Shown: positions 15,127 to 31,376 of the stretch, one piece after another
How positions within the stretch are numbered: the first letter of the stretch is position 1
How the letters are laid out: each line of letters starts with the position of its first letter
Source of the DNA: a virus
Direction: 5' to 3' (one strand)
Virus record (IMG/VR): IMGVR_UViG_3300032562_000003
Location: 62,001-126,000 of that record
Length of the DNA: 64,000 nucleotides
The notes under the pieces: generated by a model
Seen by the model: the letters and a program-made list of their open reading frames with translations, nothing else
What the model was told of the DNA's origin: nothing
The model's database searches: none
Program-made: the position numbers and the translations under genes

Positions 15127-15515
15127 TTACTTTGCTTTTAGTTTAGCAACCAAAGCTTTAACTTTGTCTGTTGGGTTTTTTATAAGGTCAAATGCACGCA
15201 TGTCTCTTCGAACAGCAGCCAATTGTACTTTTTCGGTGGGGTTTTTTATATTCTGAATATGGTACGTTTCAGAGTTAATAATTTGTGCTTGTTCGGTTGG
15301 GTTTTGTATAAATCGTATTGCGGACGCCGCATCAGTTACCGCCGCAAGTTGTATTTGGGCTGAAGGATTTGTGATATCCCTTATAAGGAATCCATTTTTA
15401 GAAACTGTTTCAAATTGTACTTTTTCGGTAGGATTTTTTATATATATAAATGCACGTATGTCTCTTCGGACCGCAGCCAGTTGAACCTCTTCTGGTGGAT
15501 TATCTATATATGTAG
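15127..15515 (-). pseudogene. frameshifted tail: 22-residue NP repeats
   Basis: Another frame continues the repeat series of the gene at 15500-16513: units such as 'NPPEEVQLAAVRRDIRAFI' and 'IKNPTEKVQLAAVRRDMRAF', ending in a lysine-rich 'ALVAKLKAK' stop. About five 22-residue units lie beyond the TAA that ends the upstream ORF. The break coincides with an AT microsatellite (TACATATATAG) near 15508-15515. This is a real frameshift mutation, a slippage switch or a sequencing/assembly error. The stretch 15049-15126 upstream holds only the ribosome site of the DsbA-like gene and no gene. Confidence 0.75.
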
Positions 15516-16513
15516 CGTTTCATAGACATCGGATTAGTTTTAACCGCGGCCATCATAACCGCATTACTTGGATTTTTTATATAACGAATAAGGTATCCAT
15601 CAGACTCAACTGCAACTAGTTGCATTTGTTCAGTTGGGTTTTCTATGTATTGAATTATCTCAGGATCGGATGTTATTGCTGCTAATTTAACTGCATTACT
15701 TGGATTTTTTATATATTCTAGAGCTAGCAATGCCGAATCCGTAACTGCTGCTATTTTTTGTTTCTCAGTTGGGTTTTTTATGTATTTTAACATCTCAGCT
15801 GGACGATTGATAAACGCATCATTCCATATCTTTTTAGAAAAATAATGCGAGACTGATCTTACTTGTTCTATACCGAGTTCATTATCAGCCTCATCCATAA
15901 ACTGGGCAGTTTCAAAATGAAACTGCCACTTGTTCGGAAATTTCTTGAATAGAATTATATATATCTTGCCTTTTGTATTATAATGATTGAAATAATTTTC
16001 ACCCTTTGTGGCTGCTGTACACCACCGCGTGCCTCTACCATAATAACATGCTGCTGCCTCATCTTCTGGTATGATTATTCTTACATTATCATCTTCAAAA
16101 TAAAGAGTAGATTTTCCTTTGTTGACCTCCTTCGGATCAGTATTCAATTGTGAATACTTTGACATCATGGTATCTTCAAATTCTTTATATGTTTTAAATT
16201 TGTTGATGTCAGCGTCTTCTGGTTGAATTTGTCTTCTCTTCTTGCCTATATTATATGAACTTAAAACATCCATTCTGTTTAGGTCTTCGAACGGTACTCC
16301 GCCTTTGGCATACATACGAGCCAACCACTGAGTATATTCTTTATTTGGAGTTGGATCCTTAGTCTCTATCTTTTCTAAAATATCAGATGGTGTTATTCCG
16401 GACCTATAGGTCCTATAGGTGTTATCTTCGTACGCAACATGAATGAGCTTATCACCCAAAGTAGCGGCGGTCTTTGTTCTGTCATATTCAATAAGAAATT
16501 CATTTGCTCGCAT
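15500..16513 (-). CDS. putative injected virion protein, WCTA family with NP repeats (truncated)
   Basis: It begins 'MRANEFLIE', a T4 capsid-targeting-like tag with a possible prohead-protease site L-I-E. Residues about 40-110 share 'YTQWLARMYAKGG' and 'DINKFKTYKEFEDTM' with the gene at 30087-31376; the core 'AAACYYGRGTRWCTAATKG' (about 150-170) defines the WCTA family of this window. The C-terminal part is 22-residue repeats ('YIKNPSNAVKLAAI'-type, DUF4116-like). The frame ends early at an AT-tract frameshift, and more repeats follow at 15127-15499. Biochemical activity is unknown; conserved Cys, Trp and His suggest an enzyme or metal site. Confidence 0.75.
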   Translation of the reverse strand: MRANEFLIEYDRTKTAATLGDKLIHVAYEDNTYRTYRSGITPSDILEKIETKDPTPNKEYTQWLARMYAKGGVPFEDLNRMDVLSSYNIGKKRRQIQPEDADINKFKTYKEFEDTMMSKYSQLNTDPKEVNKGKSTLYFEDDNVRIIIPEDEAAACYYGRGTRWCTAATKGENYFNHYNTKGKIYIILFKKFPNKWQFHFETAQFMDEADNELGIEQVRSVSHYFSKKIWNDAFINRPAEMLKYIKNPTEKQKIAAVTDSALLALEYIKNPSNAVKLAAITSDPEIIQYIENPTEQMQLVAVESDGYLIRYIKNPSNAVMMAAVKTNPMSMKRYIYR

Positions 16514-17173: not shown

Positions 17174-17734
17174 TTAAAAGTTGCGAGTATAGTTAACACC
17201 CAAGATGTCAGAGGTGACACTATTGCTACGAGTGCGATAGTAATTTACACCTACAATATTATCTTCGGTGATAGCAAAAGCGACACCGCCGTTAAGACGA
17301 TCTTCTGTAAAGGTAGGAGTGTTAGGTCCTTGACGATGACGATAACCAACGTTTACTGATACCGGGCCGTATACTTCATGCGAAACAGAAGCACCGTATC
17401 CCCAGAAGTTAAAGTCCTTATTAGTGTTCAGTGAACGGCCATACTCACCATAAGCAGCAGGAGTAAATCCTGCAACTGTGGGAAGTGCAGGGCCGCCTTG
17501 CAGCACGATCTTGCTGTTTAGAGTACCGTTATGATACGGTTGAGACCCGGTGAACTCGGCGCCGACATTAGCAATATTGGCAACAGTTTCACTATAGGTT
17601 AGACGATATTCAGTTGAGTTTGCTATCTTAGCAGGTTGCGGATCAATAGTACGAACTTCACCGGTGATAGATTCAGCAAGAGCCGGAGTAGCAACAGCCG
17701 CCGCAAGTGCTGCGATCAAGAATAACTTATTCAT
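17174..17734 (-). CDS. outer-membrane beta-barrel-like protein with signal peptide
   Basis: A clear signal peptide, 'MNKLFLIAALAAAVATPALA', with cleavage after ALA. The mature part (about 166 aa) alternates polar and hydrophobic residues in strand-length segments and ends in 'GVNYTRNF', a terminal Phe after an alternating strand as in proteins folded by BamA. It probably inserts in the host outer membrane as a small barrel of about 8 strands. It is the last gene of the curli/FecR/cyclase block and is followed by a hairpin. A receptor-blocking (superinfection exclusion) or surface-modifying role is inference. Confidence 0.7.
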   Translation of the reverse strand: MNKLFLIAALAAAVATPALAESITGEVRTIDPQPAKIANSTEYRLTYSETVANIANVGAEFTGSQPYHNGTLNSKIVLQGGPALPTVAGFTPAAYGEYGRSLNTNKDFNFWGYGASVSHEVYGPVSVNVGYRHRQGPNTPTFTEDRLNGGVAFAITEDNIVGVNYYRTRSNSVTSDILGVNYTRNF

Positions 17735-17839
17735 AGATTGTATTTCCTTTTGTTAATCTGGCTTTTAAGGCCAGTGTATTGGTACCTGTGTAAGTCTTAT
17801 ATTGGTACCCACAAGAACCTATTAAGGAGCTTGAGATAT

Positions 17840-17847
17840 ATATTTAG
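17840..17847 (-). promoter_or_regulatory. weak late-type promoter, CTAAATAT
   Basis: CTAAATAT lies 106 bases upstream of the outer-membrane protein ATG. The leader between them contains a short hairpin (CTGGC/GCCAG) and two copies of TATTGGTACC about 20 bases apart. Confidence 0.35.
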
Positions 17848-17886
17848 TATGTATAACACTACTATAAACATATAACATATTGTAAG

Positions 17887-19923
17887 TTACTTTGAAGTTG
17901 CCCTATACACTCCATCCCAGTTAACTGGTGGATTCTTAGCATATTCCTCTATACGGTCAATCATTTCCGTGTAGTACTTGTTTAGCTCTCCGCTCCAGAA
18001 CTTCTTCATATTAGAAGCATATGTTCTAGCAGAGTCCCATTCACCCTTACGATAGCTATCCAAGAATCTCAAGTGTTGTTTTTCTCCCGATGCATCATAT
18101 GAAGATAGGACAGTATAGATGCGAGCCGGTTCAGTTTTTCCTTTGACTGCAATAAGATCAAGTTCTACTACCTGATATTCATCTCTCACGTATTCGGCAG
18201 TTTTTGGTCCGATGATGATTTTGACCCCGTACGGTTTAGATTGACCTTCGAGGCGAGATGCAAGATTGACGCCGTCCCCAAGACAAGTATAGTCAAACCG
18301 CTGAGTGCTACCCATATTACCAACAACCACAGTATCAGTATTAATACCGAGGCCCATTCCAAAAGCCGGGACTCCTTCCAGTGTAATCTCATCGTTAAAT
18401 CTCTCTAATGCCTTCATCATCTCAAACGCCGTCTTGACAGCATCCTTAGCGTGTTGTTGATTACTAAGAGGTGCATTCCAAAATGCCATCTGAGCATCAC
18501 CTATGTACTTATCGAGGGTGCCGTTGTTCTCTAGAATTGCTTTTGTCATCGCAGTCATATAGCGATTCATGATCTTTGTAAGACCTTGAACATCTTTGCC
18601 GTAATGTTCAGAAATAGTAGTAAATCCACGAACATCTGTAAACATAATAGAAAGTTCTCTAGAATCACCTCCAAGTTGTAATAGTTCTGGATTCTTTTGT
18701 AATTTTTCAACCATAGCTGGAGATAGATAAGTTCCAAATTGCTTTTTGATTTGTTGCTTCTGTAAGAATTCTGAGATAAACTTGATTGTATAAATGTGCA
18801 AATAAAGTATCATTGCAATAAGTGCATTAAATGTTACATCTATTAGAATATGATTATGATTAAACATATAAACGGGGAAGTAAAGATAAACACCAATAAG
18901 AGCTATAATCCAAACTACAGAGAATCTTACTTTAGATAACAAAATGATTCCGAGAGCCAATACTACTAAAAGTGCATAATCCAATATTCCAGCCCAGTTT
19001 GGAATAGAAACTGTATCTCCATTAATTAGAGTTTGAAGAAGACTAGCTTGAACTGCTTGTGGAAATTGTGCACCAACTGGAGTAGCTACTGGATTGGCCA
19101 CACCTGAAGCAGTTACACCAAGAATTACAATTTTATTAAGCAAATCTGGAGTTTTGTCTCCAATATCAAATTGAGTAAACTTATAGTTCCAGTTCACAAA
19201 TACTCTAGAGTACTCATCTGTTTTAATAGTATTGAATGATGGAATTCTTAAAGCTTCCACACCAGTCTCGTTAATCTTAGCTTGATAAGATGGATCACCG
19301 GAAATTGCTCTTAACATTTCCATAGAAAAAGATGGATAGTATTCACCTTGAGACATTGATAATAAAGGTACACGGCGAACAACACCATCAGATTCCGGTA
19401 AAGTAGAAGTTACACCAATACCAACAGCAGCATCTTGAAATTCTGAAATATTATTAAGAACTGAAGGATAATTTGGCAAAAACTGTGTAGTTTTACCATC
19501 TCCAATTATAGCCACACCAGTTTTACGAATATTTTGATTTGGCTTAGATTGCGTCGATAGTGTCTGAGATAAAATTATTGGATGCTGTTTTAAAGTAGCA
19601 GTAAGATTTTTGTCTGTATTAAATCTATCTGGTTCAGAAAAGATTATTGTATTTCCAATTACACCAACACGATGTAAATACAAATCGTTGATTATTTTAG
19701 AATAAGTTTCTCTTGGAAAAGGATATTGTCCATATTTCTCTATAGTCTTATCTGATATATTTGCAATTACAATCTGTTCAGACTGTTTTGCTGGACCACG
19801 CATAAGATAATCATAGTATTTTAATTTGATTGCATCTACCAAAAATGGATTGGATATTTTAATAGTAAGTAATAGAGCAAAAGTAATAATCGCAAGCCAA
19901 GGCGATAGAAGAATCTTTTTCAT
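17887..19923 (-). CDS. CHASE2-domain class III adenylate cyclase, membrane-bound
   Basis: An N-terminal membrane anchor (about 8-27) is followed by a periplasmic CHASE2 sensor (about 30-300), three membrane helices (about 312-385) and a cytoplasmic class III cyclase domain (about 415-605). Catalytic residues are intact: metal Asp D430 ('FTDVRGF') and D476 ('YIGDAQMAFW'), transition-state N553 and R557 ('GDGVNLASRLEG'). Lys472 and Thr546 at the base-recognition positions fit class IIIb adenylate cyclases. It would make cAMP in the host in response to an envelope signal. FecR-domain and CHASE2-cyclase genes are common neighbours in bacteria, as here. The N-terminal two thirds look more AT-rich than the C-terminal third. 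Confidence 0.9.
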   Translation of the reverse strand: MKKILLSPWLAIITFALLLTIKISNPFLVDAIKLKYYDYLMRGPAKQSEQIVIANISDKTIEKYGQYPFPRETYSKIINDLYLHRVGVIGNTIIFSEPDRFNTDKNLTATLKQHPIILSQTLSTQSKPNQNIRKTGVAIIGDGKTTQFLPNYPSVLNNISEFQDAAVGIGVTSTLPESDGVVRRVPLLSMSQGEYYPSFSMEMLRAISGDPSYQAKINETGVEALRIPSFNTIKTDEYSRVFVNWNYKFTQFDIGDKTPDLLNKIVILGVTASGVANPVATPVGAQFPQAVQASLLQTLINGDTVSIPNWAGILDYALLVVLALGIILLSKVRFSVVWIIALIGVYLYFPVYMFNHNHILIDVTFNALIAMILYLHIYTIKFISEFLQKQQIKKQFGTYLSPAMVEKLQKNPELLQLGGDSRELSIMFTDVRGFTTISEHYGKDVQGLTKIMNRYMTAMTKAILENNGTLDKYIGDAQMAFWNAPLSNQQHAKDAVKTAFEMMKALERFNDEITLEGVPAFGMGLGINTDTVVVGNMGSTQRFDYTCLGDGVNLASRLEGQSKPYGVKIIIGPKTAEYVRDEYQVVELDLIAVKGKTEPARIYTVLSSYDASGEKQHLRFLDSYRKGEWDSARTYASNMKKFWSGELNKYYTEMIDRIEEYAKNPPVNWDGVYRATSK

Positions 19924-19942
19924 AGTATAATCCCCGTTTTAA

Positions 19943-21082
19943 TTATTTATTTGCTATATTAGTTTGAATTATAGTTATATGACCATTTGGTCTACCGGTT
20001 CCTGATGTTGGCCATTTCTGCTCAGAGAAGTTATAATAATCATAAGATCCGTCTTGTATTGTTGTAATATCTACACCAGTTGCTTTTGGTAAAACCACAG
20101 TAACAACTTCTAGTTTAGCTTGAGATAATAAAGAATATGCCCAACCAATTTGAATTTGTTTTTTCAAAAGTGGAGAAATATCTGTATATAAAGTCTGTTT
20201 TAATGGAGCATCAGAATTATATTCTTCATATACTTGTAATAATTCTGACGGAGTTGGAGTTCTTTGAAGAGCAGCAAACACTTGATTTAAATCATCCGTT
20301 CCAGTATTAGGATCTTGGTTATTGTCTGCGGCCGCCCCAGCTGGATTTACTTTATTCTTAATATCTTTTCTAGCTTGTGTTAATAGATTAGCTCCTCCTT
20401 CAAGAGAAGGAGTTGAAAGTTGAATATTATTATCTGCCGATCTTCCTTCCATACTAATTACTGATGGAGTGCTTGGGGGACCAGAAGATGTTTCTACGAC
20501 TGTAGCCTGGAATGGTTTATCCATTTTAACTACTCCAGCAGCAGTAGCTACTTCAATAGCTCCAGTTTCACATTCTTTATCCATTCTAATCTCACCATTA
20601 TTCATAAAGCATTCTGGAACTAAAATTACTGTAGTTCTTCCTACTTCATCTACAGACATAAGGAAATCTGTTCCACGAACAGCTATGGTGGCAGTTGGAG
20701 TTCTAATATCTACTGAATTTGGATTGTTGTGAGCAATTGCTCCGGAGGTATATCGTACTGTTCCTAAAGCTACTTTAAGTCCAAGTTTTCCTTTAGATTT
20801 CTCATTATCATCATATACAAAATCATCAATGACTAATTTACTATTTTCAGTAATGTTAACTTTAGTCTGATCATTAAATGTAATTCCAAACTTACCCTGA
20901 CTATTAGTTATGATGGTGTCCATCTTCTCTATACCTGAACTTTTATTTGCCGGTATAGTAGAAGATGAACGTTTTATTTGTCCGCCGCCTTTAAAATCTG
21001 TTATTGCACCAATACTAGCAAAAGCTGGAGTAGCTAACAGAAGAAAAAAACTAGTGGCCAGTCTTAATGTTAATGTTACCAT
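19943..21082 (-). CDS. FecR-domain secreted protein
   Basis: The ATG at 21082 is chosen over an upstream TTG because a GGAA site precedes it and a signal peptide follows directly (hydrophobic 'FFLLLATPAFA', cut after AFA). Residues about 30-190 form a FecR domain: 'GKFGITFNDQTKVNITENS', 'KLGLKVALGTVRYTSG', and 'IRTPTATIAVRGTDFLMSV', the hallmark 'TPxAxxxVRGT' segment. The rest is low-complexity linker and a C-terminal 'HITIIQTN' strand. It overlaps the curlin-like gene by 32 bases and lies 20 bases before the cyclase. It is probably the periplasmic partner of the CHASE2 sensor. Confidence 0.85.
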   Translation of the reverse strand: MVTLTLRLATSFFLLLATPAFASIGAITDFKGGGQIKRSSSTIPANKSSGIEKMDTIITNSQGKFGITFNDQTKVNITENSKLVIDDFVYDDNEKSKGKLGLKVALGTVRYTSGAIAHNNPNSVDIRTPTATIAVRGTDFLMSVDEVGRTTVILVPECFMNNGEIRMDKECETGAIEVATAAGVVKMDKPFQATVVETSSGPPSTPSVISMEGRSADNNIQLSTPSLEGGANLLTQARKDIKNKVNPAGAAADNNQDPNTGTDDLNQVFAALQRTPTPSELLQVYEEYNSDAPLKQTLYTDISPLLKKQIQIGWAYSLLSQAKLEVVTVVLPKATGVDITTIQDGSYDYYNFSEQKWPTSGTGRPNGHITIIQTNIANK

Positions 21083-21857
21083 TATTTCCAACACTTGTCA
21101 CATTAATAACAGTTTCAGTAGCTCCATATTGTTGTGTAGTAATAGCATTTCCAGTTCCTGTTAGATTTACATATAGACTGTGCCCATATGTGCCACCAAG
21201 GTCTGTTTGTGTAGTATTTAAAGTATTGTAATCACCAGATACTAAGATTGTTTGAGAAGCATTTGGTGAAATTGCAGACATTGTTAATGAGTTATTTCCA
21301 CCAGTAATATCAAGGGTAGTTGTAATATTAGCACCTGCACCATGATAATTTAGAGAATTACTATCACCTGTAAATCTAGCATTAAAGTTTAGACCGGTAC
21401 AACTCGCGTCGCCTAAACTACTTCCACAACGAATTAGAGCATAGTTGCTATTTCCAATTTGTTGAAGAGATAATGAAGCATTATCTGTTCCAGCAGTACC
21501 AGATACAACTGAGATTAGGGCTTCATTATTATTACCAGTTTGAATACCAATAATAGATTGGTTAGCTCCTCTCAAATATACAGGATCTGTAAAAGTACCA
21601 AAGATATTTGTCTGGCCAGTTTGTTTAATATTAATATTAACATTATCACCAGATTGATTAATATAAACATCATTTGTCGTTGACATACTATCAGCATTAT
21701 TTTGATTTGGTGAAGTTGCTATAATAGATGGTGCTGATGGCGCACCAGGTAATGCCGCAGTTGCTGGAGTTGCGGGACCAGTTGGCGATGCAGTTTGAGC
21801 TAATGCTGGTGTAGTAAATAGCATCGCCATTATTGCTAGTGTTTTTAATAGTTTCAT
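21051..21857 (-). CDS. curlin-like amyloid repeat protein (CsgA/CsgB-like)
   Basis: Signal peptide 'MKLLKTLAIMAMLFTTPALA', then a Pro/Ala/Thr-rich segment, then repeats with the curlin spacing of Gln, Gly and Asn: 'VYINQSGDNVNINIKQTGQT', 'LSLQQIGNSNYALI' and later degenerate copies ending 'VGNNGNINIKTG'. Two Cys around residues 140-150 are unusual for curlins. It directly follows csgG (ATGA overlap), the natural partner that would export it. The repeats are less regular than in CsgA, so it may be a minor subunit or nucleator. Confidence 0.75.
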   Translation of the reverse strand: MKLLKTLAIMAMLFTTPALAQTASPTGPATPATAALPGAPSAPSIIATSPNQNNADSMSTTNDVYINQSGDNVNINIKQTGQTNIFGTFTDPVYLRGANQSIIGIQTGNNNEALISVVSGTAGTDNASLSLQQIGNSNYALIRCGSSLGDASCTGLNFNARFTGDSNSLNYHGAGANITTTLDITGGNNSLTMSAISPNASQTILVSGDYNTLNTTQTDLGGTYGHSLYVNLTGTGNAITTQQYGATETVINVTSVGNNGNINIKTGH

Positions 21858-22675
21858 TTGTGTTTCTCCTGTGTGGTTTTATAATGCCATAGCCCTATTT
21901 TTTCACCACTCTTTATTAATTCAACAACACCTGTTTCTATGGCAGATCGAATAGCATAATTTTCCGGCTCATTCTTAGTTTGTTGTGAATCTATTTCAAA
22001 AGCATTAGTTCCCTGATTAAAGAAAGTAAATGCGCTAATGCCTTCAGAAGTAGACAATAGATTCTTTTCTACAGATACTGAAGTAAGTACTTCTCCAGTC
22101 TGTACAGACACCAATCTCATATTAATTGTTACTTGATCTTGGATATACTGCGTGTTTGGTCCAATACCAAGATATCTAGCACCATTTCCTCCAGTTTTTA
22201 TAGAAGAATTATAATCTATAATTGCGCCTTCTAGCAATACTCCTGCAACTAAAAGTGGAGGAAGAGCTTGAGCCTTATCGCCTTGTTCTTGCTCTCTCAT
22301 TTGACGAATAAGTTGGCGCTCTTTTACTAAATCATCTAATCCTACTCTTTCAACTGGCTTAAACCATTTCCCATTTCCAGCTTCATAAAGTGCTTTTACA
22401 ACGTAAGCATCTGCTCCCTGAGTTACTGCGGTAGAAAATGAACTTACAGTTTGAGAAGGTTTTCTTTGACCAGTTTTATCAATAAATGAATATACCGCAA
22501 TTGGAATAGGTGTACCATCTAATTCTGGAATATTATCAAATATATGCGGTTGAGCTGTATGAGTTATCTTTGGTGAATCTTTTTGAAGAAAAGACTGGTT
22601 TAATGCCGGAATAGATCCACCTAAACAGCCAGATAGAAATACACAAAGAAATGGAACTATAATTATTCTCTTCAT
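21854..22675 (-). CDS. csgG: curli secretion channel CsgG
   Basis: A lipoprotein signal with lipobox 'LSGC' (C17). The body matches E. coli CsgG in order and length (273 vs 277 aa): 'AVYSFIDKTGQRKPS', 'FSTAVTQGADAYVVKAL', 'VGLDDLVKERQLIR', 'GAIIDYNSSIKTGGNGARYL', 'DQVTINMRLVSVQTGEVLTS' and 'AIETGVVELI'. CsgG forms the nonameric outer-membrane pore that secretes curlin subunits. It shares one base with the csgF stop (TGATG) and overlaps the curlin-like gene. csgG/csgF have been reported in some marine T4-like phages (recollection), so a pore role in takeover, lysis or exclusion is also possible. Confidence 0.93.
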   Translation of the reverse strand: MKRIIIVPFLCVFLSGCLGGSIPALNQSFLQKDSPKITHTAQPHIFDNIPELDGTPIPIAVYSFIDKTGQRKPSQTVSSFSTAVTQGADAYVVKALYEAGNGKWFKPVERVGLDDLVKERQLIRQMREQEQGDKAQALPPLLVAGVLLEGAIIDYNSSIKTGGNGARYLGIGPNTQYIQDQVTINMRLVSVQTGEVLTSVSVEKNLLSTSEGISAFTFFNQGTNAFEIDSQQTKNEPENYAIRSAIETGVVELIKSGEKIGLWHYKTTQEKHK

Positions 22676-23124
22676 CAGAATGCAAACGTTGCTATTGGAA
22701 CAGTAACTATAGTTTGATTTCCATTTGTATCTACAACTGTAAGTGTTACACTGGTTCCAGATTTAACATATGATATTGTATCACCAGACAAATTAAACAT
22801 TCCGGAATTAGAAGAACTAGTTCCAGAGAATAGATTATTTGATAGCTGTGTAGCCAATTGAGAATATACTTGGCTTGTGAACAAAGCTATAAATTTTGCG
22901 GTTGGAGTACTGGCAGCAGCATTTTGTTGAGCTATTATAGAATTTTGTTTTGCGGTAGCTATAGTTTGTTTAGCTGATTCTTCTTGTTGATATGTAGAAG
23001 TAGCAAACGTGCCATAGCTGACCCCATTAAATATAGGATCTTTAAATTGTTGAACTAACTCCGAAGCAAATGCCGAACTACTCAAGCACGATGCAAACAG
23101 AGAAAGTAGTATGATCTTCTTCAT
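22675..23124 (-). CDS. csgF: curli assembly factor CsgF
   Basis: The start at 23124 is chosen because GGAG lies 9 bases upstream and the signal peptide begins there ('MKKIILLSLFASCLSSSAFA'). The mature start 'SELVQQFKDPIFNGVSYGTF' corresponds to the CsgF N-terminus ('FRNPNFGG'), the segment that plugs into the CsgG channel. The C-terminal part ends in two strands ('TVVDTNGNQTIVTVPIA') like the E. coli protein. It is the first gene of the csgF-csgG-curlin-fecR-cyclase series. CsgE and CsgD were not seen. Confidence 0.85.
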   Translation of the reverse strand: MKKIILLSLFASCLSSSAFASELVQQFKDPIFNGVSYGTFATSTYQQEESAKQTIATAKQNSIIAQQNAAASTPTAKFIALFTSQVYSQLATQLSNNLFSGTSSSNSGMFNLSGDTISYVKSGTSVTLTVVDTNGNQTIVTVPIATFAF

Positions 23125-23174: not shown

Positions 23175-23483
23175 TTAGTCGGTCCTGTGATCAGACCTGC
23201 TTAACTGGTTAATTGCTTTTTCTGCTTCTACTCTTCCATACTCGATTGTCTTGCCGCGTAAATGCAACACTGTTTTGACTTTTTGGTTTAGTCTAATTAG
23301 ATCATTATCTAGCATTCTAATACGGTCTATAAGTGCGATCAAAGTTGTATTAGCTTCGCCCAGCACTGGTTTAACTTCTTTAGTAGCCCACTCCCATACA
23401 TAGAATATGAGATATCCCATACCGACCGCTGCTATGATCGGAAAACCGTACTTGTTTACTAGATCAGCTAAGTCAGATCCCAT
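23175..23483 (-). CDS. holin-like membrane protein, paralogue 1
   Basis: A predicted N-terminal membrane helix (about 12-33, 'YGFPIIAAVGMGYLIFYVW') is followed by an amphipathic helix or coiled coil ('LIALIDRIRMLDNDLIRLNQ'), the layout of small phage holin/XhlA-like proteins. It is homologous to the next gene upstream (23483-23764), sharing 'GFPI-AA-G-GY-F' and 'ALI/L-R-' positions. The two genes are coupled by a TAATG overlap. They lie directly before csgF, so the pair may belong to the same envelope-active operon. Confidence 0.55.
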   Translation of the reverse strand: MGSDLADLVNKYGFPIIAAVGMGYLIFYVWEWATKEVKPVLGEANTTLIALIDRIRMLDNDLIRLNQKVKTVLHLRGKTIEYGRVEAEKAINQLSRSDHRTD

Positions 23484-23764
23484 TAATCTCTCCGTGCATC
23501 TGTTTTACCATCGGCGCGGGCTATTCTATCTATATCTGGTTCTAGCCCTAAAGCGTTAGAAACCATAGTGTCAATACGAATAACATCATGATTCATGGTT
23601 TTTACACGATTGTCAAGCGCCGTGATGATGCCAGCCATACCTTTGATACTACCGGTGACGCCGGCAAGTATGAATTTCAGTGTTAGGAATACGAAGTATC
23701 CTGCACCCATTGCGGCCGCAATAGGAAAACCAACATCAGCAATAAGTTTTAGGAAATTTCCCAT
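23483..23764 (-). CDS. holin-like membrane protein, paralogue 2
   Basis: The start at 23764 ('MGNFLKLIADVGFPIAAAMG') is preferred because an AAAGAGATAGAG purine tract sits just before it; an upstream start would add 12 residues. A single membrane helix (about 10-35) is followed by a helical tail 'ALDNRVKTMNHDVIRIDTMV'. It is similar to the downstream paralogue. A CTAAATAC element lies about 55 bases upstream and a strong terminator just beyond that, so this gene probably starts a transcription unit that can run into the curli genes. Confidence 0.55.
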   Translation of the reverse strand: MGNFLKLIADVGFPIAAAMGAGYFVFLTLKFILAGVTGSIKGMAGIITALDNRVKTMNHDVIRIDTMVSNALGLEPDIDRIARADGKTDARRD

Positions 23765-23837: not shown

Positions 23838-23865
23838 AAAAAAATCGCTGTATATATTACAGCGA
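23838..23865 (-). terminator. Rho-independent terminator
   Basis: TCGCTGTA pairs with TACAGCGA around a 5-base loop, followed on the minus strand by seven T. The stop codon of the 92-aa gene lies inside the stem. Confidence 0.9.
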
Positions 23866-24135
23866 CTGCAGGACCTTAGCGAAATCGTCCTTGCTGCGAA
23901 TAGCGATGTCTTGCAGACGCTCGCGATCCATGGGCTTAAGGCGAGAGAACTTGCTCATGAATTGAGTGATGATATGAGTGGGAACAACCGCCTTAGTGCC
24001 ATCCTTAAAAACAATCGGATAGTTGCCCTTCAGATCAAGAACCTTCTTGAACTGCATGACGATGTGGGGGACCTGATCTTGATCAGGATCCGAGACCGAG
24101 TCAACTTCATTTTGGAAATCGTCGTAGATGTTCAT
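23857..24135 (-). CDS. conserved small phage protein, 92 aa
   Basis: A soluble protein beginning 'MNIYDDFQNEVDSVSDPDQD' with a basic C-terminal helix 'RLKPMDRERLQDIAIRSKDD'. The pattern 'IVFKDGTKAVVPTHIITQFM' looks like a compact beta-alpha domain. It is followed immediately by a strong terminator, with the stop inside the hairpin. No function is recognised. Its codon choice (more G/C at third positions) differs from the AT-rich block to its left. Confidence 0.65.
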   Translation of the reverse strand: MNIYDDFQNEVDSVSDPDQDQVPHIVMQFKKVLDLKGNYPIVFKDGTKAVVPTHIITQFMSKFSRLKPMDRERLQDIAIRSKDDFAKVLQSL

Positions 24136-24203: not shown

Positions 24204-26474
24204 TTATATTCTTTTAAAAAGAACATCACCCTTAATAGGAGTAATTAACTTGCTTTTATTTTGATTAAGCATCCCTGTTTGAAGATGCTTCACGATTTCA
24301 GGAGTTAAATGTCTAGCACGAAGTTCACCTAATCCAAACATATGAACCTCTACCGGATCGTCACCTTCTAAATCTTGAATAGCCAATATACGGTTACGAC
24401 CTTCGTGTCCTACTATTCTAGCTGACTCGCTGAAATCACCGTCTTCCCATTCAACGGGAAAATCAAAAATTAAAAATGGTGAACCTAATGCTCCGCCGGC
24501 CTGCATATGTTGTTTTATATGCTCTACTGATACTGGTTTATCTAAAGGTAGTGCCAAAGATAAGAATGTGCTAGGACGCATAAGAACACGCATTCCTCTG
24601 TACGCTACATTCGCATTGTATCCAGTAGCACCAAGACCTTCACCATTTATGTCGTTATCAACTTTATACTCGTTTACTGGCGAAGGTGTTGATCTATGAT
24701 TATTAGCTATTACTTGCATAATAGCATTAAATTTGTTTACTCTATCTTCAAGACCATGCAGCCCTGCGTTAATTGGTTTAGTCGCAGCCTGAGTATTGTT
24801 GAAATTAGTAACCTTAGGTGCAACTCTGTTTTGCCAAAACCAAACAGCAACCCTGGCTGCAACGTTTGGTCGTTCAACAAGTTCAGGTTGCTGCTCTAAT
24901 GGTAAACCTAAGGCTTTTCCTACCTTACGGTAATTTTCTCTACCTGTTAATTGAATGAATCCTCGCCCGTGATATCGTGCACCATCTCCTGGATGTGTGT
25001 TACCCAATAGCTTTGCTTTTTCTGGATTATATTTAGGATCATATTTCTTAAAATCTAATTTTCCGCCAAACTCTTTTAGTGACGAAAAATTTTGTGTCTC
25101 ATGTGCGCATTGTGCCAGAAACTGCGCAAGTTCGGTTCCGGTGATGCCAGCTGCCTGTGCTGCTCGTCTAAGTGCTACACCATATGGGTTAGTTAACCCG
25201 GACAGCGTTTGCTTTACTACAGCAGGATCAACCTTAGGTAATTGCACCTGATGTGATACCGGCATGTGTGGCGTAACTGGTTCTACTGTCTTGTTGGGCA
25301 TACCGTGCATACCCAAAGCTAATCCTGCAGCTACGCCCATACCTTTAGCGGCTGATTTCCAGTCTTCGTCTAATTCACTTGTAGAATTATCTTTGACTAG
25401 TGCCTTCTCTAATTTAGGATCAAGGGTAATTGCTAGCTTAACTGTATTAGGATTTGGATTTTTAATAAGTAGAATAGCAGCAGGATATTCGGTGACTGCT
25501 ATTTTTTGTACTTCCAGTGAAGGATTCTTGATGACCTGAATTGCGTCCGGAACTTCAATTACAATATCTCTTAATACCTTTTCATTTGGTTGAGGGTTCA
25601 TGCATCTCAATACAGAAGGACTATATACTGCTGCATCTACTAATAATCGATCCGGTATTTTAGATACATCTACATTATTACTAACTAGTTCTGAGATATA
25701 ATCATATGTATATTTGGTATTATTGATAAAAAGTAGATCCTTTTCTATAGATAAATCACGATCCACGTAGCTTCTCGGGCCGTATAACCAATCCTTTACG
25801 CGAGTTACTGCGCTAGAGTGCGGTACTCTAGCTAATTCAATTTTATCCTTTTTTTGTAAAGCTAGGTTGAGTAATTTTTCTGAAGATAACTTAGTTTCTG
25901 CTGCAAATGAACTGTGAGAAATTTCGTCATCCTCTGCATCAAAATATTGAGTATCCCCGTCGTATTCTGATCCTCGCATAGTGTTGTCAGAAGGCATTAG
26001 GTTGGTTACCGTGTGTGACGCGATTGCCCACTTGGCGCCGGACTGTTTATTGATACAATATATTAAAATAGATTCATCTTGATAGAAGTGTTGTTCAAAA
26101 TGACCTGGAGCACGTTTGGCTGTGCACCAATCAGTATTTTTACCATAGAAACAACTTGCATCTTTATCTAGAGGAACAATGACAAGCCACTTGTCATTGT
26201 CAACCAATGTAATACTTTTTCCAGGAATCTTTCCGCGCTTTAGTTGTCTTTTTGTTCTTGATGGATCGATAGAATTTACAAACTGCGTAAACTCACTAAA
26301 GGACTTCTTTCCCCACCAGTCAATATTTCGCTCAGTGCCACTAACTTGATTTTTGTTGACGAGTTCCTTAAAGGCGGCGATGGCTCTTTGTACATCCTCT
26401 GCAGGTACTCCTGAGTTAATATATTTCTGCGCTACTTCTTTGTAGCCCTCAGCGATGAATTCTGTTACTCGCAT
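24204..26474 (-). CDS. putative injected virion protein: WCTA domain, repeats, GH19 lysin, ParB-like end
   Basis: Tag 'MRVTEFIAE' at the N-terminus (I-A-E site). Order: WCTA domain (about 85-190, 'DASCFYGKNTDWCTAKR'), degenerate NP repeats (about 290-370, 'IQVIKNPSLEVQKIAV'), a linker with a hydrophobic 'GMGVAAGLALGMHGMP', a GH19 chitinase/lysozyme domain (about 410-600; 'AQCAHETQNF' with the catalytic Glu and 'YHGRGFIQLTGRENY'), and a C-terminal module with 'ARIVGHEGRNRILAI' recalling ParB-like folds. GH19 enzymes cut peptidoglycan or chitin-like chains, so this could open the wall during entry. A second GH19 at 52636-53259 is the likely endolysin. Confidence 0.75.
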   Translation of the reverse strand: MRVTEFIAEGYKEVAQKYINSGVPAEDVQRAIAAFKELVNKNQVSGTERNIDWWGKKSFSEFTQFVNSIDPSRTKRQLKRGKIPGKSITLVDNDKWLVIVPLDKDASCFYGKNTDWCTAKRAPGHFEQHFYQDESILIYCINKQSGAKWAIASHTVTNLMPSDNTMRGSEYDGDTQYFDAEDDEISHSSFAAETKLSSEKLLNLALQKKDKIELARVPHSSAVTRVKDWLYGPRSYVDRDLSIEKDLLFINNTKYTYDYISELVSNNVDVSKIPDRLLVDAAVYSPSVLRCMNPQPNEKVLRDIVIEVPDAIQVIKNPSLEVQKIAVTEYPAAILLIKNPNPNTVKLAITLDPKLEKALVKDNSTSELDEDWKSAAKGMGVAAGLALGMHGMPNKTVEPVTPHMPVSHQVQLPKVDPAVVKQTLSGLTNPYGVALRRAAQAAGITGTELAQFLAQCAHETQNFSSLKEFGGKLDFKKYDPKYNPEKAKLLGNTHPGDGARYHGRGFIQLTGRENYRKVGKALGLPLEQQPELVERPNVAARVAVWFWQNRVAPKVTNFNNTQAATKPINAGLHGLEDRVNKFNAIMQVIANNHRSTPSPVNEYKVDNDINGEGLGATGYNANVAYRGMRVLMRPSTFLSLALPLDKPVSVEHIKQHMQAGGALGSPFLIFDFPVEWEDGDFSESARIVGHEGRNRILAIQDLEGDDPVEVHMFGLGELRARHLTPEIVKHLQTGMLNQNKSKLITPIKGDVLFKRI

Positions 26475-28973: not shown

Positions 28974-30090
28974 CTTCTTGACTCACATCCACGTACTTAA
29001 TTGGTTTCCTATTTAATATCGCTGCTAATGCACGATGATGCCCGTCGACTACAATTCCGTCGTTCATGACAATAATACTATTTGATAAATTAGGATCTGA
29101 TCTATATGAATCTACAATATCTTCTTGATCAGAATCTAGCATGTCATAAATTTCATCGATATGATCTACGCCATATTGACTTTTAAATAGTAGTTCCAGT
29201 TTAACTGGTGAAATAGTTTGAACTGTAAAAGGTACATTAAAGTCTGAGTCACCTACAAAATTCCAAATCATCTCATCGTGATCTGGGAGACCCTTACTAT
29301 ACAACTGTTTCAATGTAATCTTATTTTCTGATGAAAAATCCTCATATGTCATAGCAGTAATACGATGAGGTCCTTTGGTTTTGAATTGACCATACTCTTG
29401 TTCATATGTAGTTGGACCCCCGACCATCGATCCGCCGCCTATCCCGGCCGAACCTCCGCCCTGACCAGTACTGATGGTTTCTCTCAGCTTCTCAACATCA
29501 GCAATAGGATCAGTGATAACAGGAATGTCACCTTTTCTCCAAAGTATGTTACTTATACCTACATCTATTACAACGGTTCCACCTGCTGCACTTCTAATAA
29601 AATCCAAAACTGGTTTTAGTTGAGGGAATTCTTCAAAAAGTGTAGTTTCTTCTGCGTATGGGCGCCGCGGATATACCTCTAAATATTCTTGTATCTGATA
29701 TCTAATATTTTTTCTCTCTAAAGTGAATAGATTTTTGTTATCCAACAACTCCATTCGCATTAGATTAAATCTGCGCAATAACTTTACTGGGCGGCCAATA
29801 ATCTTTGGAACATGTGGGTTAGATTGATTCTGTAACACAAAAGAAAGATAGGTGTCATATGCAGGATCATCTTTCCAAAGCTTGATGATACTGTCTTCGC
29901 CGGGACGCTTGAATGCTGTGCCGAAACAACCTGAGCCTAATACGTATTGCTGATATCCTGCCAGTTTTAAGGCATCCAAAAATTCTTCCATATTTCTGCT
30001 GTTCTGCAACAGAGAATACACTGGATCTTTCTTATAACCAGTTAACTCGTTGAGCGGTTCATTTTCAGAGATGAATTCTCGGGCTCTCAT
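28969..30090 (-). CDS. putative injected protein: kinase-like fold plus ParB-like domain
   Basis: Tag 'MRAREFISEN' (I-S-E). Residues about 45-200 read like a protein-kinase fold: Gly loop 'VLGSGCFGTAFKRPG', Lys in 'SIIKLW', hinge 'MRMELL', catalytic loop 'VIDVGISNILWR' and metal Asp 'ITDPI'. A Gly-rich linker ('STGQGGGSAGIGGGS') leads to a ParB/sulfiredoxin-like end with 'IVVDGHHRALAAI'. The shared 'NPHVPK' segment links it to the kinase-like protein at 62158-62736. It could phosphorylate host proteins or be a pseudokinase; ParB-like folds can bind CTP or act as nucleases. All activity is inference. Confidence 0.65.
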   Translation of the reverse strand: MRAREFISENEPLNELTGYKKDPVYSLLQNSRNMEEFLDALKLAGYQQYVLGSGCFGTAFKRPGEDSIIKLWKDDPAYDTYLSFVLQNQSNPHVPKIIGRPVKLLRRFNLMRMELLDNKNLFTLERKNIRYQIQEYLEVYPRRPYAEETTLFEEFPQLKPVLDFIRSAAGGTVVIDVGISNILWRKGDIPVITDPIADVEKLRETISTGQGGGSAGIGGGSMVGGPTTYEQEYGQFKTKGPHRITAMTYEDFSSENKITLKQLYSKGLPDHDEMIWNFVGDSDFNVPFTVQTISPVKLELLFKSQYGVDHIDEIYDMLDSDQEDIVDSYRSDPNLSNSIIVMNDGIVVDGHHRALAAILNRKPIKYVDVSQEA

Positions 30091-31376
30091 TTGTTTCTTT
30101 CGATCAAATCTACGTCCCAGCTACCATCTTTCTTTTTTTGTACAAGAACGTTCTTTACCAAATATTTAGCAATACCAGTGTCATGTAGTCGGCTACCTCT
30201 AAAATGGTTTAACAACATGTCTGATATTATGCTTGGTGTGTCATCTATTCCGACACCGACATAATCACCTTCTTGTGTCATCTCTTGCGTGCAGGCCTTC
30301 AGATGACGCGGTGATGGTGTAACTATGCTTTCAATATTATCCACCCATTCTTTAGCATCTGGATTCCAAGACATATAATCGTTACCTGCTGCATATGCTG
30401 CGTCCCAATCAATATCTCCGTCCTCATCGCCATAAAGTTCTCTCATGTCTCGATAATAATAATCGTCATTCTGTTCCCATTCCGCAATTTCTTCGTATGC
30501 CTTATCCATAGCTATTTGACTAATTTTAGTAATAACCGAAGTCAGAACGTCGTCATCTGCAAATAATATGCTGTTTTTAATTGCTGGTTCATTTTCTCTA
30601 AAGAATGAGGACAAATCTCCAAATCTTTTGGTAATTAATTCCTCTACGTTTACTGGAGAATCGGCTTCATCCATGAATGAACCGGTTTGAAAATGTATTT
30701 GGTATTTTTCACCGTCGCGTTTAGGATGTTTTGGTATCAAGATATACAATTTACCTTGACTACTATAATTTTTGAAGTAGTTCGTTCCTTTAGTTGCAGC
30801 AGTACACCAGCGGGTGCCTCTTCCATAGTAACATGCAGCGGCTTCGTCCTCAGGAACAATTATGCGTACTTGTTCATTGTCAAATATTGTGTTAGCCTGA
30901 CCCTTTTCTTTAGCTTTTGCAGAATCCGCACCTTCAATCTGATCTAAATCATAATTACTCAGCATAGTATCTTCAAATTCTTTGTAGTTTTTGAATCGAT
31001 TAATATCAGCATGTTCTGGTTTAATCATCCTGCGTTTCTTACCTAAATTGTAGATACCAAGTAGATTTCCTCTGTTTAAGTCCTCTAACTTCACTCCACC
31101 TTTAGCATACATTCTAGCAAGCCACTGAGTGTATTCTTTATTTGGTGTTGGATCTTTTTCTTCTATAGCCTGCAATATGTGTTGAATTATGTCGGCTTTG
31201 TCGGCCTCAGTAGCCTTATTACCAGGTACTAGAACTTCTCTAGCGAATTGCCTGTATACCATCATATTACCACTAATGGCGCCCATATCCTTAGCAAATG
31301 CAGGAATGAGACCAGTACCTAGTGTCTGTGCGGTTTTGTTTCTATCATATTCAATTAGAAACTCTATGGCTCGCAT
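30087..31376 (-). CDS. putative injected virion protein, WCTA family
   Basis: Tag 'MRAIEFLIE', followed by 'YDRNKTAQTLG', almost the same as in the gene at 15500-16513. 'EYTQWLARMYAKGGVKLEDL' and 'DINRFKNYKEFEDTM' lead to the core 'DEAAACYYGRGTRWCTAATK' (about 170-190) and 'IHFQTGSFMDEAD'. The C-terminal 180 residues are acidic and Tyr/Trp-rich with no repeats, unlike the paralogue. Its stop overlaps the next gene by 4 bases (ATGA). The near-identity of the cores suggests a duplication that later gained different C-terminal parts. Confidence 0.7.
   Translation of the reverse strand: MRAIEFLIEYDRNKTAQTLGTGLIPAFAKDMGAISGNMMVYRQFAREVLVPGNKATEADKADIIQHILQAIEEKDPTPNKEYTQWLARMYAKGGVKLEDLNRGNLLGIYNLGKKRRMIKPEHADINRFKNYKEFEDTMLSNYDLDQIEGADSAKAKEKGQANTIFDNEQVRIIVPEDEAAACYYGRGTRWCTAATKGTNYFKNYSSQGKLYILIPKHPKRDGEKYQIHFQTGSFMDEADSPVNVEELITKRFGDLSSFFRENEPAIKNSILFADDDVLTSVITKISQIAMDKAYEEIAEWEQNDDYYYRDMRELYGDEDGDIDWDAAYAAGNDYMSWNPDAKEWVDNIESIVTPSPRHLKACTQEMTQEGDYVGVGIDDTPSIISDMLLNHFRGSRLHDTGIAKYLVKNVLVQKKKDGSWDVDLIERNK

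Follow-up and report, generated by a model that had tools for sequence, protein, structure and literature searches.

Curli amyloid is a major surface fibre of bacteria, and genes for its export are also carried by ocean viruses. Zaragoza-Solas (2020) described csgF and csgG in pelagimyophages (PMC7029224), and Buchholz (2022) discussed csgF and csgG in phage Melnitz, argued for a role in lysis and reported no csgA/B (PMC9004378). For pelagiphages of both podovirus and myovirus type, Wittmers et al. (2022) describe the order csgF-csgG-csgA/B-FecR-(csgA/B)-adenylate cyclase (AC) and report metatranscriptomic expression of these curli genes (PMC9599517). Here, we describe a module of this kind in the IMG/VR virus record IMGVR_UViG_3300032562_000003. 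It was found in a window of 64,000 bases, which corresponds to bases 62001-126000 of the 258,859-base (259-kb) record. In our view, the module probably encodes a phage type VIII (curli) secretion system in one operon with a FecR-CHASE2 envelope sensor that makes cyclic AMP (cAMP). An earlier note on the window had considered the cyclase and its FecR partner to be new. They are not, because the pelagiphage module was published in 2022 (PMC9599517) and phages HTVC008M and Melnitz carry the same gene order in their GenBank annotation. What is added here are the jumbo-size carriers, a constant pair of small membrane genes (sTM-1 and sTM-2) and the tail of the FecR protein; the gene set itself was known from smaller ocean viruses.

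Gene content and layout of the module

The module and its genes are given below in the order of transcription, followed by two neighbouring features (positions are those of the window).

23764-17887, minus strand: whole module, with sTM-1, sTM-2, csgF, csgG, curlin, fecR and AC in this order
23483-23764, minus strand: sTM-1, ~93 aa, one predicted transmembrane (TM) segment; TTG extension possible to 23800
23175-23483, minus strand: sTM-2, 102-aa paralogue of sTM-1 with the core LIDRIRMLDNDLIRL (family alignment; ratio of nonsynonymous to synonymous substitutions, dN/dS)
22675-23124, minus strand: CsgF, extracellular pore partner (PF10614, E=3.4e-13; phrog_35372); TTG extension possible to 23139
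21854-22675, minus strand: CsgG, outer-membrane secretion pore lipoprotein (PF03783, E=6.6e-52)
21051-21857, minus strand: curlin-like (CsgA/B-type) beta-solenoid subunit with a signal peptide-like N-terminus (family hidden Markov model, HMM, and structural model)
19943-21082, minus strand: FecR-domain protein with a signal peptide-like N-terminus (PF04773, E=2.1e-11); GTG start possible at 21094
17887-19923, minus strand: CHASE2-TM-class III adenylate cyclase with the class IIIb residue set K472/T546 (PF05226, E=2.7e-37; PF00211, Guanylate_cyc, E=8.5e-20)
17174-17734, minus strand: small outer-membrane beta-barrel-like protein, a lineage-specific neighbour (relatives match OMP_b-brl, PF13505)
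23843-23867, minus strand: terminator-like hairpin of 10 pairs followed by a T-run, between an upstream 92-aa gene and sTM-1 (pattern scan only)

Pfam matches of CsgF, CsgG, FecR, CHASE2 and Guanylate_cyc all exceeded the curated cut-offs, and the curlin-like protein was recognised with a phage-family HMM, which agrees with the identities given in the earlier note. CsgG matched the E. coli CsgG structures (E~3e-45) and was 45% identical to CsgG of Melnitz and HTVC008M. Of the parts of a curli (type VIII) secretion system, the module holds homologues of the CsgG pore and of CsgF and a curlin-repeat substrate. From csgF to fecR the genes overlap (by 1 base for csgF/csgG, 4 for csgG/curlin and ~32 for curlin/fecR), and the cyclase gene follows fecR after 19 bp. 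The close-packed series described earlier therefore holds for these genes, but not for the beta-barrel-like gene, which lies 152 bp beyond the cyclase, adjoins it in some loci only and whose product had no Pfam match of its own. This gene is a loose lineage-specific neighbour outside the core module. The gene set named at that time was otherwise right in its members but did not include sTM-1 and sTM-2 (23175-23764), with which the unit opens. The terminator-like hairpin directly before sTM-1 suggests that the transcription unit begins at this gene.

The tandem sTM pair is a near-constant marker of the module. We identified 130 copies, a pair at each of 65 loci; most were proteins of 85-130 aa with one hydrophobic segment. 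Within INPHARED, the family was confined to six records, all of curli phages (Melnitz, HTVC008M). sTM-1 ends in a conserved '...DGKxDAR(R/K)D'. The dN/dS of sTM-2 was ~0-0.09, and the highest 19-aa hydropathy of the window protein (1.54) corresponds to a borderline TM segment. When loci were retrieved by sTM-1 alone, CsgG was present in 45 of the 58 that had downstream room, and AC, curlin or FecR in 11 of the other 13. The curli block in these loci often lay on the strand opposite the sTM pair, indicating that their association outlasts rearrangement. In PMC9599517, genes labelled 'histidine kinase' are placed before csgF in pelagiphage modules, and the sTM pair most likely corresponds to these genes, judging from position. 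No kinase profile was found at E<=1 among 22 sTM members, in which YvrJ alone recurred, weakly, and the dimerisation and ATP-binding domains of histidine kinases were not detected in sTM proteins.

A different role might be indicated by the size and TM segment of the sTM proteins, which fit a holin, by the weak YvrJ similarity of sTM-1 and by a weak match of sTM-2 to a holin phrog (E=0.011). A GH19 endolysin fusion gene is located just upstream of the module in the window, the record lacks the CsgE gate, and a lysis role has been put forward for Melnitz (PMC9004378). CsgG/CsgF might then serve as a gated outer-membrane hole in a device for lysis timing, with holin-like sTM proteins beside the endolysin and fibre export secondary or lost. 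We consider such a device unlikely: almost all modules contain curlin genes, on which purifying selection acts, GH19 genes do not consistently adjoin the module, and the hairpin sets the unit apart from the upstream genes. A lysis model also leaves FecR, the CHASE2 cyclase and the curlin unexplained.

The cyclase, the FecR tail and the curlin-like subunit

In the cyclase, CHASE2 occupies residues 18-324, with hydrophobic windows at ~1-29 and 309-383, and the closest solved structures were adenylate cyclase domains. As had been noted earlier, the catalytic set is complete, including the metal Asp pair D430/D476, the adenine-specifying K472/T546 and the transition-state N553/R557. Of the 116 phage cyclases compared, 100 had all six residues. 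The remaining 16, including that of Melnitz, had a transition-state N->S replacement, with T->D at the T546 position in every one listed, and offer a natural comparison for whether catalysis matters. Cyclases with both replacements occur in L091, L259, L295, L237 and related loci. Relatives of the window cyclase were encoded in at least 599 IMG/VR stretches. In a quick tree, 56 phage cyclases formed one branch (SH-like approximate likelihood ratio test, SH-aLRT, 100) against 49 bacterial cyclases taken from among the matches listed, from which the true nearest relatives may be missing.

FecR normally partners a TonB-dependent receptor and is known from ferric citrate signalling. The FecR domain of the window protein spans residues 59-159 (counted from the GTG at 21094). 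Neither a partner extracytoplasmic function (ECF) sigma factor nor a TonB-dependent receptor was found among the module genes examined, and we therefore file the phage protein only as a FecR-domain protein. The ferric citrate connection and the lack of a CsgE plug would suit an uptake pore, in which the CsgG channel admits scarce solutes (e.g., siderophores or vitamins) and FecR and cAMP act as a sensor of uptake or starvation. A pore of this type was suggested in PMC7029224 and PMC9599517. It leaves CsgF and the conserved curlin genes unexplained, the module genes examined supply no TonB-dependent receptor for it, and we hold it to be quite improbable.

The C-terminus of the window FecR ('...GHITIIQTN') resembles a curlin strand. 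A phi-x-phi-x-Q motif, which was picked after viewing the alignment of phage sequences that are related to each other, occurred within the last 20 residues of 95 of 97 distinct phage FecR proteins; it is similar to the end strand of curlin repeats. The same motif was present in 1 of 38 FecRs near bacterial CHASE2 cyclases and in 104 of 1650 internal windows of phage FecRs. Conservation of this tail is real, and its meaning may lie in contact with the exported protein, as discussed below.

The curlin-like protein is 268 aa long and had no usable Pfam match. However, the phage curlin-family HMM recovered the csgG-adjacent curlins in all five of the alphaproteobacterial csgFG loci (best E ~2e-18), and the invariant columns of the family alignment corresponded mostly to curlin-repeat residues (G, N and Q). 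Nine GxxN turns were counted in the window protein versus 3.9 in shuffled sequences (61 of 10,000 shuffles reached 9), and AlphaFold predicted a beta-solenoid from approximately residue 66 (pTM 0.70).

We propose that CsgG and CsgF would form a pore in the outer membrane, that the curlin-like protein would be exported through it and that this protein would then assemble as amyloid on the infected cell. Periplasmic FecR, with its tail resembling a curlin strand, would read curlin export or the state of fibre assembly and signal to the periplasmic CHASE2, and the cyclase would make cAMP in the host cytoplasm. The sTM pair might belong to the device as a component in the inner membrane. The fibre might coat or clump infected cells, which would block superinfection or keep new hosts near, and cAMP might adjust host physiology. 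The identity, order and conservation of the genes, purifying selection and, for most members, a complete catalytic set are established here; export, fibre formation, FecR-CHASE2 coupling and the effect of cAMP are inferred, and the combination of amyloid export with cAMP signalling appears plausible. More tentatively, the phage FecR could be a substrate-mimic sensor, whose curlin-like strand engages the amyloid or the CsgG/CsgF pore and relays export to CHASE2 and cAMP. The module would then be a phage-built circuit joining two bacterial units and the sTM pair, shared by tailed phages that range from the published small podoviruses to genomes of ~350 kb. We regard this version as possible but doubtful; if the tail does couple export to cAMP, it would represent an unusual virus-made signalling circuit.

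Several observations weigh against the proposed export and signalling. The CsgE gate (PF10627) had no match anywhere in the 259-kb record; CsgE is also reported to be absent from pelagiphage modules (PMC9599517), and has been described as non-essential for curli (PMC7029224). A Foldseek search of the curlin model against PDB gave nothing at E<=0.001 and no significant CsgA match; in the E-value order FapC came first and a CsgA fifth, which is unusable as proof. For Melnitz, its authors observed no clumping (PMC9004378). The C-terminal region of the FecR was modelled by AlphaFold with low confidence, so the claim for its tail depends on sequence. The phage record yielded no cAMP-binding domain of CRP type, and cAMP would therefore have to act via the host. 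Finally, the set of 16 cyclases with T->D and N->S implies that cyclase activity may not be needed everywhere. In the papers examined, we found no experimental test of any module part. A phage-borne export system with a second-messenger enzyme could alter the sticking, shedding and phage resistance of infected cells; aquatic viruses commonly carry the module, and the sTM pair and the FecR tail provide concrete handles.

Distribution, exchange and phage context

Loci for the comparison of gene order were retrieved by AC and CsgG, in addition to the second set retrieved by sTM-1. The order sTM-sTM-csgF-csgG-cur-FecR-(cur)-AC was observed across dozens of viral contigs that were long enough, with few exceptions. 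A search of other phage genomes, as proposed in the earlier note, found the same order in HTVC008M, Melnitz and many viral contigs. All seven genes had dN/dS of ~0-0.2 in nine pairs, in which several dS values were saturated. The blastn search of the cluster against INPHARED gave no match, and relatives were thus found by protein only. Within the stretches examined, CsgG and AC occurred together in six contigs of more than 200 kb (L228, 285 kb; L240, 349 kb; L274, 202 kb; L285, 317 kb; L290, 344 kb; L305, 286 kb). These contigs and the 259-kb record show that the module reaches jumbo-size phages, for which no report of csg genes was found in the literature searched.

The genes around the module are those of a phage, as the earlier note had stated: the GH19 endolysin fusion lies next to it, and TerL, a DnaB-type replicative helicase and tail fibre genes are present elsewhere in the record. 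The best matches of TerL were jumbo phages, namely Sinorhizobium phage Phosso (50%), the Pseudomonas PA5oct group (49%) and Agrobacterium Atu_ph07 (52% over 81% of the query). The record also has five tRNAs and a permuted tmRNA (L222:16603-17008, G000 ~202603-203008) with the tag ANENDAYEGLALAA, which matched RF04321 and the alphaproteobacterial model RF01849 in Rfam. The fit to the latter model hints at an alphaproteobacterial host, although phage tmRNAs can be borrowed. Three proteins of the window (15500-16513, 24204-26474 and 30087-31376) have a domain with a 'WCTA' motif in common (phrog_28193/17056). DUF4116-like 'IKNPS..AV' repeats occur in two of them, and one carries a fused GH19 endolysin domain; in some stretches, the nucleotide identity is 69-76%. 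Other features of the record include an apparently single giant open reading frame of ~6,300 codons split over two stretches (L220:13156 to L221:12049, G000 ~159156-178049) and a Nol-like carbamoyltransferase (L222:11818-13299).

The block has a lower GC content (0.33-0.36 over 19-23 kb versus ~0.40), as might be expected if a bacterial curli block had been joined to a phage contig during assembly, a possibility raised in the earlier note. We found no such join. Contigs from other samples (L002 and L084, which are stretches of one contig, and L082) matched the window at 99.9% identity over 18.8-20 kb, including both flanks, which rules out an assembly chimera for the window. In addition, two cultured phages share the gene order with many contigs, and the phage genes are on a branch apart from bacteria, making an artefact extremely improbable.

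Contig L083 provides a candidate for exchange of the module between phages. A segment of ~4.5 kb, from csgF into the catalytic domain of the cyclase (L083:8594-13090), was ~99.5% identical to the window. L083 is otherwise an unrelated phage contig. Its replication region is of T4 type, with a family B polymerase, a UvsX-like recombinase and a helicase, and the replication proteins reached at most 23-29% identity to the best matches that they had in the window record. Reading frames remain open over both junctions, and recent recombination of the core between phages is likely. No second contig with these junctions was found, and an assembly join in L083 itself is possible because they occur in this contig alone.

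Origin and comparison with known systems

Each half of the module resembles a bacterial unit. FecR-CHASE2-AC clusters have been described in Campylobacterota (PMC9239204), and we detected FecR-domain open reading frames near the CHASE2 cyclase in 40 of 80 bacterial loci; none of the 80 had csg genes nearby. Most partner FecRs in these bacterial clusters greatly exceed the phage protein in size (406-3065 aa), and a curlin-like tail was seen in one of 38. Among 385 genomes of Alphaproteobacteria, there were six CsgF matches, five of them with CsgG. Their curli operons consist of csgF-csgG and adjacent curlin-repeat genes, as in the phage module, and no FecR, CHASE2 cyclase or sTM gene was found near csgFG in the five ~20-kb loci. 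Most simply, the phage operon would have arisen by joining two bacterial units, although in such a small sample a bacterial operon that was already joined may have been missed. A CsgG-like sequence with 39% identity to that of the window is also present in OR851715.1, a record of 1,499 bases filed as Salmonella phage S.Kent 1-2-1, which may be DNA of the bacterial host.

Compared with the pelagiphage type VIII secretion system, as given in PMC9599517, the window module has the same order of csgF, csgG, csgA/B-like, FecR and AC genes and likewise no CsgE; an alphaproteobacterial affinity was reported for the pelagiphage genes. It differs in residing in a 259-kb record and in having a single curlin gene where the pelagiphage module has two. 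Ahead of csgF, the window has genes for membrane proteins of ~95-105 aa, which by the profiles used are not histidine kinases, and no description of the FecR tail motif was seen in the text examined. HTVC008M and Melnitz (PMC7029224, PMC9004378) possess this syntenic unit as well, down to the pair of small membrane genes that precede csgF, with 38-46% protein identity to the window in AC, CsgG and FecR. A second curlin is present in each of the two phages, their genomes measure ~141-147 kb, and the Melnitz cyclase carries the transition-state N->S replacement.

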